DNA of 13,158 nucleotides from Deltaproteobacteria bacterium (lineage in GTDB: Bacteria > Desulfobacterota > Desulfobulbia > Desulfobulbales > BM004). Shown in pieces: positions 3,318 to 12,227 of the stretch (positions are counted from its first letter, which is position 1; every line of letters starts with the position of its first letter). Where the stretch lies: the NCBI GenBank assembly GCA_019312695.1, contig JAFDCT010000215.1, positions 1 through 13,158 of the forward strand. The letters are read 5' to 3'. The notes beneath the pieces were generated by a model, which was not told where the DNA came from, made no database searches, and saw only the letters and a program-made list of their open reading frames with translations. A program made the translations under genes and the position numbers.

Positions 3318-3887
3318 TTAGAGCAATCTATAGGGATACGCCCTCTTGGTCCATTCATTTTCCGGAAATCGATTGCTTAAAGTTTCATACGCCTCTTTTA
3401 AGGAGGCGGGGGATCCAGTGTTTTTATAATGCGCCACACCCCGGAGAAAAATTGCCTCCGGCACACTGTCACTCCCGGAATGAGCAGAAATTATTTCTGC
3501 AAAATATCCAAGGGCCTCCTTGAAGCGGTCATTGTCGAAATGGTATTTGCCGATACCGAGCAGTGAGCCGCTAATAAAGGCATCGGGATCCAGGAAGCCC
3601 ACTGAACGATGGTGTTCCTGCCTGTCAGCTCCAAGGGTTATCAGGACAGGGGTCCATTTGATATTGAAGTCAGCTGAGATTGGTTTCGCATCGAACGGAA
3701 TCTGCAGGGGAATATAGTTCTTATTCACGAAATCAATCACTTTTTTGTCGGGATACGTAACTGCATCCATCTGCTGGCAGCCTATTCAGTCGGGATTATG
3801 AAAAAACAGCAGGATCGGCAGATTTTCTTTTTGAGCACGACCTTGTGCACGTGCCATATCTTTTTCCCAGACGATTATTGCAGCCAT
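3318..3887 (-). CDS. Thioredoxin-fold selenoprotein (U-x-x-C) with TPR-like tail
   Basis: An ATG at 3887, preceded by purine-rich AAAGGTAAAGGT, opens a frame with a single in-frame TGA at 3786-3788 and a TAA at 3318-3320. Reading TGA as selenocysteine gives 189 residues. The N-terminus is like thioredoxin_7-type proteins: VWEKDMARAQ, then NLPILLFFHNPD, then U34-I-G-C37, QQMDAVTYPDKKVIDFVNK, and a cis-Pro motif WTP at 78-80. The TGA sits exactly where the first cysteine of the CxxC redox motif belongs. Residues about 108-175 look like one or two TPR-type helical hairpins (KYHFDNDRFKEALGYFAEI). No signal peptide is seen, so it is probably a cytosolic thiol/selenol oxidoreductase; the partner is unknown. 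A SECIS-like hairpin follows the TGA. A gene caller stopping at TGA would start falsely at Met40 (3770) and lose the active site. A nonsense-mutated pseudogene is the alternative, but is less likely. Confidence 0.85.
3751..3788 (-). promoter_or_regulatory. Candidate bacterial SECIS element
   Basis: Starting at the TGA (3788-3786), 17 nucleotides lead to a perfect six-pair stem: GGATGC (3768-3763) with GTATCC (3756-3751), including one G-U pair. It closes a six-base loop AGTTAC (3762-3757). The TGA-to-loop distance of 23 nucleotides, the short stem and a G at the second loop position followed by U agree with what is known of bacterial SECIS hairpins that bind SelB; the E. coli fdhF loop is AGGUCU. 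A competing fold exists: GGCTGC (3782-3777) with GCAGTT (3764-3759), two G-U pairs, a 12-base loop and only nine nucleotides from the TGA. That spacing is too short for a usual SECIS. Confidence 0.7.
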
Positions 3888-4072
3888 AACACTTTTACCT
3901 TTACCTTTTTCTTCCGAAAATTAATAAACTATTCTGTCCTTACAGGTTGTCATATGTTCTTTATATAACTTTGCGTATTTTGCCGGCTAATGCAATACCC
4001 ATATTCCGATTCAAATCGTTGCAGCATACTTTAGCAGGGCAGCATGAAAAGCTGCAGAATGCTTTGACAGGA

Positions 4073-4368
4073 ACAGTCAAGACCATTGATTTCCCCTGGT
4101 CTACTAACCAGATAGCCCATCAGCACCATGAAAGATTTGACGGGTCCGGTTATCCTCTGGGACTTATTGCAGACCAGATAATCCCTGGGGCAAAGATCAT
4201 CTGCGTTACAGATGTTGTTGAGGCCGTGGCTTCACATCGACCCTACCGTCCGGCCCGTGGTGTTGATACAGCACTGGGACATATCCAGGAGGAAGGAGGG
4301 CAGCCTGTATGATGCCACTGCAGCGGACATCTGTCTGAAATTGTTTACTGAGAAAGGTTTTCAGTTTG
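4073..4368 (+). pseudogene. Remnant of an HD-GYP domain (C-terminal part, frameshifted)
   Basis: The translated segment TVKTIDFPW..., QHHERFDGSGYPLGL, IICVTDVVEAVASHRPYRPA is clearly the second half of an HD-GYP phosphodiesterase domain, which hydrolyses cyclic di-GMP. The HHExxDGxGYP signature is kept. Around 4285-4300 the homology leaves this frame, where a TGA follows soon at 4310-4312. It resumes in another frame as GSLYDATAADICLKLFTEKGFQF, which is how such domains normally end. The segment upstream of 4073 in the same frame (from an ATG at 3947) does not resemble the HD half, and the His-Asp metal ligands are missing. So the N-terminal half is deleted and the rest carries about one frameshift. 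The tail touches the 3' end of the FKBP gene on the other strand. It probably makes no functional product. Confidence 0.8.
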
Positions 4369-7326: not shown

Positions 7327-7590
7327 ATGGTACCAAATAGCGATTGGCCCTGTTGGGAAATCATGAAATGTGAGGGAACGGAAGACTGTCCAGCAAGAAA
7401 ACGTCCCGACTTAAACTGCTGGGAAATTGCCAATGAGATGGACGACTACAGAAAGGCATTCAATATCTGCAAGGACTGTATCGTTTACATGCTCAAGTCT
7501 GACAGCTCTGTTCTTACCAAGCAGGAAGTGCAGACTATCATGAACCGGAAGGGTAACTGTGCACTTCAGTTAGATATTCCCGGCAATTAA
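7327..7590 (+). CDS. Small Cys/Trp-rich 'two-CW' domain protein
   Basis: An 87-residue soluble protein with two similar C-W motifs: WPCWEIMKC (7-15) followed by DCPARKRPD (20-28), and NCWEIANEMDDYR (30-42), then ICKDCIVYML (47-56). It has seven cysteines, two of them in C-x2-C at 48 and 51, plus a late one in GNCALQL. This resembles small proteins I associate with sulfate-reducing and related Deltaproteobacteria, called two-CW domain proteins; their function is not established. The cysteine layout suggests binding of zinc or an iron-sulfur cluster, but that is inference. A very strong ribosome site, AAGGGGG, lies seven bases before the ATG, so it is likely well expressed. It stands alone, 99 bases after ysxC, and converges on the hydantoinase gene. 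Confidence 0.85.
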   Translation: MVPNSDWPCWEIMKCEGTEDCPARKRPDLNCWEIANEMDDYRKAFNICKDCIVYMLKSDSSVLTKQEVQTIMNRKGNCALQLDIPGN

Positions 7591-11237: not shown

Positions 11238-12227
11238 TTGACCTTTCAGGCGCTTTTATTAGAATGTGCCACCATGGAAGACGATACGAACGATAAAGCT
11301 GAAATTATGGAACCCCAACAACTGGTAAGCATGCCGGATGACAAAAACCTTCCTGTCATCGGTCATACGGGTTTACAGCGCTATCTCCAGGAGATCAGCC
11401 AGTTTCCTCTTTTGTCCAGGGAGGAGACCGAGGAGTTGGCGGTTCGTTATCATGAGACAGGTGATCAGGAAGCTGCCTACAAGCTTGTATCTGCAAATCT
11501 GCGGCTTGTGGTGAAGGTGGCCATGGATTTTCAGAAATACTGGATGCAGAATTTTCTTGATCTTATTCAGGAGGGTAATGTCGGCCTGGTTCAGGCAGCC
11601 AAGAAGTTTGATCCCTTCAGGGAGGTCAAGTTTTCCTATTACGCAGCTTACTGGATCAGAGCCTATATCCTTAAGTTCATCATGGATAACTGGCGTATGG
11701 TAAAGATCGGCACTACCCAGGCTCAACGAAAACTGTTTTTCAGCCTGAACAAAGAAAGAAAACTGCTTGAATCTCAGGGATTCAGACCTGATACAAAGTT
11801 GCTGGCGGAACGCCTTCATGTCAAGGAGAGTGAGGTTTTGGAGATGAGCCAGCGCATGGACAACTGGGATGTATCACTGGAAAGTCCGGTGCGTGAAGAT
11901 TCTGATGATGAACAAAAGGATTTCTTGCCGCATGGGGGACCAAGCGTTGAAGAGGTTGTGGCCGGCCGGGAGATTAAGGAGCGGATGGCGGAGATACTTG
12001 ATCAACTCCAGAGCAGTCTCAATGATAAAGAGCAGATGATCCTGCAGGCCAGATTACTGAGTGATGAACCCCAAACCCTGCAGGACATTGCTGATATTTT
12101 TGGGATATCCCGGGAACGGGTTCGGCAGATTGAGGTCAACCTGTTGAAAAAAATGAAGAAATTTCTTGAAAAAGAAGTCCCTGATATCAAGAATTTTTTT
12201 GGTCAGGAAGAAATAGAACAAGGATAG
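11238..12227 (+). CDS. rpoH: RNA polymerase sigma factor, RpoH (sigma-32) type
   Basis: A group 2/3 sigma-70 family factor of 329 residues that directs RNA polymerase, in this subgroup usually to heat-shock genes. Region 1.2: LQRYLQEISQFPLLSREETE (46-65). Region 2: ANLRLVVKVAMDFQ, FLDLIQEGNVGLVQAAKKFD and the -10 recognition part SYYAAYWIRAYILKFI. It is followed by the RpoH-box-like QRKLFFSLNK (163-172), the best evidence for RpoH. Region 4.2 helix-turn-helix: LQDIADIFGISRERVRQIEV (281-300). It is about 40 residues longer than E. coli RpoH, because of an N-terminal extension and an acidic segment near 217-230. The start is TTG at 11238 with AAGGA six bases upstream; the first ATG (11274) has no ribosome site. 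The true regulon cannot be read from this window. Confidence 0.93.
   Translation: MTFQALLLECATMEDDTNDKAEIMEPQQLVSMPDDKNLPVIGHTGLQRYLQEISQFPLLSREETEELAVRYHETGDQEAAYKLVSANLRLVVKVAMDFQKYWMQNFLDLIQEGNVGLVQAAKKFDPFREVKFSYYAAYWIRAYILKFIMDNWRMVKIGTTQAQRKLFFSLNKERKLLESQGFRPDTKLLAERLHVKESEVLEMSQRMDNWDVSLESPVREDSDDEQKDFLPHGGPSVEEVVAGREIKERMAEILDQLQSSLNDKEQMILQARLLSDEPQTLQDIADIFGISRERVRQIEVNLLKKMKKFLEKEVPDIKNFFGQEEIEQG

Follow-up and report, generated by a model that had tools for sequence, protein, structure and literature searches.

The question raised by this locus is whether a thioredoxin-like gene with a TGA codon at its redox site encodes a selenoprotein. In the window, as we call the whole 13,158-nucleotide stretch of DNA analysed, the frame runs on the minus strand from 3887 to 3318 and spans 189 residues, with a TAA stop and a lone in-frame TGA at codon 34 (3788-3786). 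The initial annotation had described a frame broken only by this TGA, and translation reproduced that description to the base. The motif around codon 34 reads H-N-P-D-U-I-G-C, and the TGA occupies the first position of UxxC, which is the first Cys of CxxC, as the same annotation had stated. Judging from sequence comparison, the gene very probably encodes a 189-residue selenoprotein, a U-x-x-C thiol-disulfide oxidoreductase of the thioredoxin fold. Its features are as follows.

3318..3887, minus strand: whole putative selenoprotein gene, 189 codons from ATG to TAA with an in-frame TGA at codon 34, supported by homologues.
3786..3788, minus strand: TGA codon 34, predicted to be read as Sec; TGA in 90 of 102 distinct loci and Cys in 9.
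3777..3779, minus strand: Cys37 codon, second half of UxxC; TGC or TGT in 88 of 88 distinct TGA sequences.
3751..3768, minus strand: SECIS-like hairpin with stem GGAUGC/GUAUCC and loop AGUUAC, the loop 23 nt past the TGA.
3564..3878, minus strand: thioredoxin-fold domain, approximately residues 4-108; among solved proteins, DsbD-gamma is nearest.
3648..3653, minus strand: Thr79-Pro80, presumed cis-Pro position of the thioredoxin fold by the usual pattern, shared by 60 of 60 members.
3324..3587, minus strand: C-terminal TPR-like helices, approximately residues 101-188, from PF13174 and model helices.

The TGA, Cys37, Thr79-Pro80 and the RNA element are all conserved. A contig scan of named genomes yielded 14 loci, 11 of which cover the whole protein at 48-73% identity. 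All 11 of these full-length relatives carry TGA at codon 34; the other three loci are remote matches (24-28% identity) and not full-length close relatives. In a profile search of 395 Desulfobacterota-phylum genomes, a draw from a larger phylum set that also served for the selB counts given below, matches were found in 86 genomes and the TGA form in 75. Each match contained one TGA or no stop, and neither TAA nor TAG was seen in the gene matches from the 395 genomes. Locus fetching and duplicate removal left 103 rows representing 102 distinct loci, as one copy (L069) is counted in two rows because it is frameshifted. Read as DNA, 90 of these loci have TGA at codon 34 and no other stop in frame along the match; of the others, nine have Cys, one has Asp, one has Glu and one is the frameshifted TGA copy. 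This count leaves out a fragment without column 34 (L068) and the second frameshifted reading of L069. Two far matches (62-63 bits, frames longer than 450 aa) were set aside as other proteins: L151, with no stop, and L152, with one TAA. Both kinds of relative that the initial annotation had named as support, with Cys and with an aligned TGA, were thus recovered.

No second in-frame TGA was reported by script in the aligned members. Two of the 90 TGA matches end before the tail (1-150 and 1-157), and identity to the window protein goes down to ~24% among the 99 longer members. Alignment A2 (60 rows) displays TGA as Cys and excludes the Asp and Glu members, so its 60/60 at column 34 is no evidence. 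In the same alignment, column 37 is Cys in 58 rows and Ser in the remaining two, and several Cys34 members have Ser at 37. T79-P80 is identical in all 60 rows; by the usual thioredoxin pattern we take it to be the cis-Pro place, which had been described as intact. Two of eight database proteins read (P0228 and P0288) have Ser at position 34.

Altered forms were observed among the relatives. L069 (~1907-2235, in genome G240) is a decayed gene copy that keeps the TGA and hairpin, with a frameshift just past the CxxC and a broken 3' half. In family f62 (L059, L061, L063, L064, L065, L066 and L067), CxxS-like motifs, or Asp or Glu in place of the first Cys, have come to occupy the site, which suggests that the drifted members no longer work as dithiol enzymes.

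Upstream of the TGA, the pattern of substitution is that of a coding sequence: when the window gene is compared with five relatives more than 60% identical to it, codons 1-33 show pS of 0.42-0.73 and pN of 0.16-0.30. Elsewhere in the window TGA is an ordinary stop: it ends four of the ten other genes checked, and none of the ten has it in frame.

We then consider the RNA element. The hairpin spans +21 to +38 from the U of UGA (3768-3751). According to PMC13188914, bacterial SECIS rules are a G in the first two loop positions, a spacing of 16-37 nt and a loop of 3-9 nt. A hairpin fitting these rules is present in 90/90 TGA loci; its loop lies at +27/+28 in 86 of them and at +21 in the other four, and 69 of the 90 outdo synonymous recodings of the same peptide (p<0.05). 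When the same rules were applied to the 11 Cys/Asp/Glu loci, some hairpin was found in six, at varying places, and none in five. Loop G28 shows no variation in an ungapped alignment of the 88 distinct TGA sequences (88/88). Measured against shuffles that do not preserve relatedness, 94.1% of stem cells in these sequences are paired versus 88.4%, and double changes at four of the six stem pairs amount to 30 cells versus 6.6; sliding the partner by 1-3 columns gives pairing of 22-65%. An Asp41 to Gly change (GAU to GGU) is coupled with a silent UAU to UAC change in Tyr45, and another sequence group has a longer perfect stem, GAAUACG-GGUC-CGUAUUC. Synonymous differences in codons 41-46 number 0-1 per pair in the comparison with the five relatives, versus pS of 0.70-0.84 in codons 47-189.

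Folding energy downstream of the TGA was not better than that of shuffles (z of -0.08, -0.23 and 0.52). Because this comparison was uninformative, covariation and synonymous constraint were used instead. The hairpin by itself folds at -7.2 kcal/mol, and the whole stretch at -8.4; the former is slightly short of the -7.5 quoted in PMC13188914. A scan of the window against Rfam yielded no hit that reached the gathering score. One Cys member with a motif similar to that of the group with the longer perfect stem (L057, in G288) is without this stem, and selB was not found at the threshold used in that 98%-complete genome. A Sec-to-Cys change with loss of the hairpin is possible in this case.

The initial annotation had proposed a check for selA, selB, selC and selD. 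The window's genome is a draft MAG of 2.01 Mb in 383 contigs and is 88% complete. It contains SelB (379.9 bits, cut-off 242) and SelD (341.9 bits, cut-off 125), and SelD has an in-frame TGA of its own, in RTCG-TGA-AAKIGP (L137, G000 contig C54), so that the genome has a further candidate selenoprotein in SelD. A search of this 88%-complete MAG for SelA and tRNA-Sec found neither; the proposed check thus came out in favour for selB and selD, while selA and selC were not found in the incomplete bin. Five weak tRNA-Sec matches in the genome were assigned by ARAGORN to Cys, Arg, Arg, Leu and Leu tRNAs. In same-genus genomes, SelA exceeded the cut-off in 7/8 and tRNA-Sec in 3/8, and the TGA gene is present in six of the eight, with no match in two. 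ARAGORN called a tRNA-SeC with anticodon TCA in all three loci tested, from the same genus (L157), family (L153) and order (L158).

Across the 395 genomes, selB was found in 72/75 TGA carriers versus 5/9 Cys/Asp/Glu-only carriers (Fisher p 0.002, from a table without G212 and G240, which hold the L068 and L069 fragments), and this test overstates independence because seven of the nine Cys/Asp/Glu genomes are one family. As the base rate of selB is 353/395 genomes, the contrast rests on those nine. selB was not found at threshold in three of the 75 TGA carriers: G042 (67% complete), G286 and G344 (both 92%). Taken from sequence, the TGA and Cys relatives, the covarying hairpin, and selB together with a TGA-containing selD support the proposed reading as a selenoprotein with a U-x-x-C oxidoreductase site.

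Database records bear on the other readings of the codon. Among the best 120 of 395 database hits, 103 start at Met40, two start at codon 35, ten have Trp at position 34 and five have Cys; further homologue listings covered the best 120 of 576 and the best 120 of 1892. The Met40 and codon-35 starts and the Trp34 entries are products of gene callers that met a TGA and either restarted after it or read it as Trp. Some fragment entries past the Sec codon bear TPR protein names (among the best 120 of 395). We found no description in the literature of a systematic annotation as 150-aa fragments. The prevalence of Met40 starts, which include P0002, the window's own cluster, would fit a product of only 150 residues from Met40, with the TGA either truly terminating a short upstream peptide or being read through in part, and partial termination at Sec codons is common. 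We nevertheless regard this as very unlikely, as a Met40 start would drop the first strand and the catalytic site of the model, Met40 itself is found in 53/60 members and is not universal, and the Cys members read are full length. Moreover, selection at the protein level constrains the 33 codons upstream, with W7 and F29 invariant in 60/60 members of alignment A2.

The ten Trp34 entries among the best 120 of 395 homologues would be expected if the TGA were decoded as tryptophan. However, the database W is a translation-table product, since P0006 and P0008, which show it, are near-identical to L020, and the DNA of L020 has TGA at that place. The alternatives seen at DNA level are nine Cys, one Asp and one Glu, with no TGG, four of ten other window genes terminate with TGA, and Trp would abolish the redox site; we give tryptophan decoding almost no credence. 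In a draft MAG one might suspect a pseudogene or artefact, an ordinary CxxC thioredoxin gene that acquired its TGA by nonsense mutation or by sequencing error, and the relative L069 is truly decayed, with both a TGA and a frameshift. This explanation is refuted by the identical TGA in 90/102 distinct loci from many genomes, and the coding constraint on both flanks of the TGA and the covarying hairpin also speak against it, leaving it a negligible probability. The sequencing error that the initial annotation had named as a possible refutation is excluded by the same recurrence.

Over the cut-off of 27 bits that applies to all three Pfam models, PF13098 (residues 18-104, 37.2 bits), PF13899 (residues 7-65, 36 bits) and PF03190 (28.1 bits) extend across the TGA. 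Thioredoxin-fold sequence thus lies on both sides of the TGA, as had been claimed. The earlier label of a thioredoxin-like gene is right for this domain and incomplete for the protein, whose second part is a TPR tail. Behind the thioredoxin-like domain of the window protein Pfam gives weak TPR matches, and PF13174 (TPR) matches 47/60 members at E<=0.01. An AlphaFold2 model from 60 sequences (mean pLDDT 97.4, pTM 0.92) has thioredoxin-like strands and helices to approximately residue 108 and tail helices at 101-118, 122-135, 142-157, 161-173, 178-182 and 184-188. Position 34, modelled as Cys, lies directly before helix 35-44, which we take to be the usual place of the redox site. In a sequence search of solved proteins, DsbD C-terminal domains and 2kuc, a putative disulphide-isomerase, came out as the best relatives, and CpoB, YbgF, BamD and designed TPR proteins matched the tail.

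No conserved neighbourhood was seen among 577 neighbour ORFs around the 103 rows, the largest cluster being nine ORFs in six loci, and no conserved neighbour among them names a partner. FKBP relatives lie near the gene in four loci. As the neighbourhood is not conserved, the window's HtrA and FKBP neighbours probably lie there by chance, and the mechanism is given by analogy. SelB and tRNA-Sec would decode the TGA at codon 34 as Sec, with the hairpin that spans +21 to +38 as their guide. From the fold and motif, the substrate would be attacked by Sec34 at a disulfide or at another oxidised sulfur or selenium, Cys37 would resolve the mixed bond, and a cellular reductant would restore the site. 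The C-terminal TPR helices would probably dock a partner or dimer mate. By this analogy, the U-x-x-C oxidoreductase probably acts in the reducing direction. As no long N-terminal extension precedes the fold, the protein is probably cytosolic.

Other features of the window were also noted. Adjoining the selenoprotein gene, an ORF at 3947-4312 on the plus strand retains just the end of an HD domain (PF13487, 56 bits over positions 89-164 of 170) and resembles a remnant of a longer HD-GYP gene. An 87-aa ORF rich in Cys (WEIMKC..CPARK..CWE) lies at 7327-7590 on the plus strand; neither Pfam nor NCBIfam gave a match to it at E<=0.001. The plus-strand gene at 11238-12227, with a listed TTG start, encodes an RpoH-like sigma-32 factor that scores over the NCBIfam sigma-32 subfamily cut-off and under the RpoH equivalog cut-off.

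We next compared the gene with named selenoprotein families. A 2026 catalogue holds 119 prokaryotic selenoprotein families and subfamilies, with no TPR entry in its Table 1 (PMC13188914). That table includes a 'Thiol:disulfide interchange protein' family with PF13098, UxxC and WP_011366075.1, for which a 2004 paper is cited (PMC13188914, Table 1). A 2006 survey (PMC1794560) reports the thiol:disulfide interchange family from Syntrophus aciditrophicus, Geobacter metallireducens and G. uraniireducens, and the GOS survey gives the same family ('Trx-like 2') as cd02953 with UxxC (PMC2398784). The window protein shares with the 2004 family the UxxC motif, PF13098 as its best Pfam match and a DsbD-gamma-like character. 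Among the matches listed, a TGA relative occurs in a Syntrophaceae-named record (P0155, DNA L123) and a Cys relative in a Geobacteraceae-named record (P0276); cd02953 is presumably DsbD-gamma. Unlike the 2004 family, for which the parts of these sources available mention no TPR tail, the window protein has one. On these descriptions, the window gene probably belongs to the 2004 thiol:disulfide interchange family or a close branch of it, and novelty is therefore lower than first estimated.

Similarity to DsbD gamma extends over residues 4-108, where the thioredoxin domain aligns with 4ip6, 1uc7, 2fwe and others (E ~5e-13). In contrast to DsbD, the window protein is without a membrane or alpha domain and without an N-terminal extension, has Sec for the first Cys and carries the TPR tail; P0001 scored 14 bits against the DsbD model cut-off of 330. 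The NCBIfam models for TsoB, VPGUxxT type 2 and Trx7/PDZ (seleno)proteins contain related thioredoxin domains, but P0001 reached 23.7 of 805, 25 of 275 and 18.8 of 300 bits, respectively, and by model name they have another architecture or motif. P0003 was likewise far below, and neither P0001 nor P0003 attained the cut-off of any NCBIfam model. No paper was found on a TPR-containing or, in the hyphenated spelling, 'thiol-disulfide interchange protein' selenoprotein, and we found no description in the literature of the TPR architecture or of the extent of the gene family (75/395 Desulfobacterota genomes). For two Desulfobulbia genomes, PMC12013277 puts the number of 'known' selenoprotein genes at 40-43, and the family of the UxxC-TPR gene may be among them. 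It is possible, though we doubt it, that the gene instead represents a distinct, widespread family with a DsbD-gamma-like UxxC domain and a TPR tail, probably cytosolic and separate from the 2004 family.

The finding is well supported and mostly of a known type. It clearly illustrates how annotation can miss a selenoprotein, with 103 of the best 120 of 395 database relatives lacking the catalytic residue. As amino-acid and silent changes covary in a way that keeps the stem, the gene family also makes a good test set for SECIS prediction. If the family should prove distinct, Desulfobacterota would commonly carry this redox enzyme, which goes unnoticed since gene callers place its start directly behind the Sec codon, and Sec would be its ancestral state, with Cys forms arising where the Sec system was lost, as in G288.
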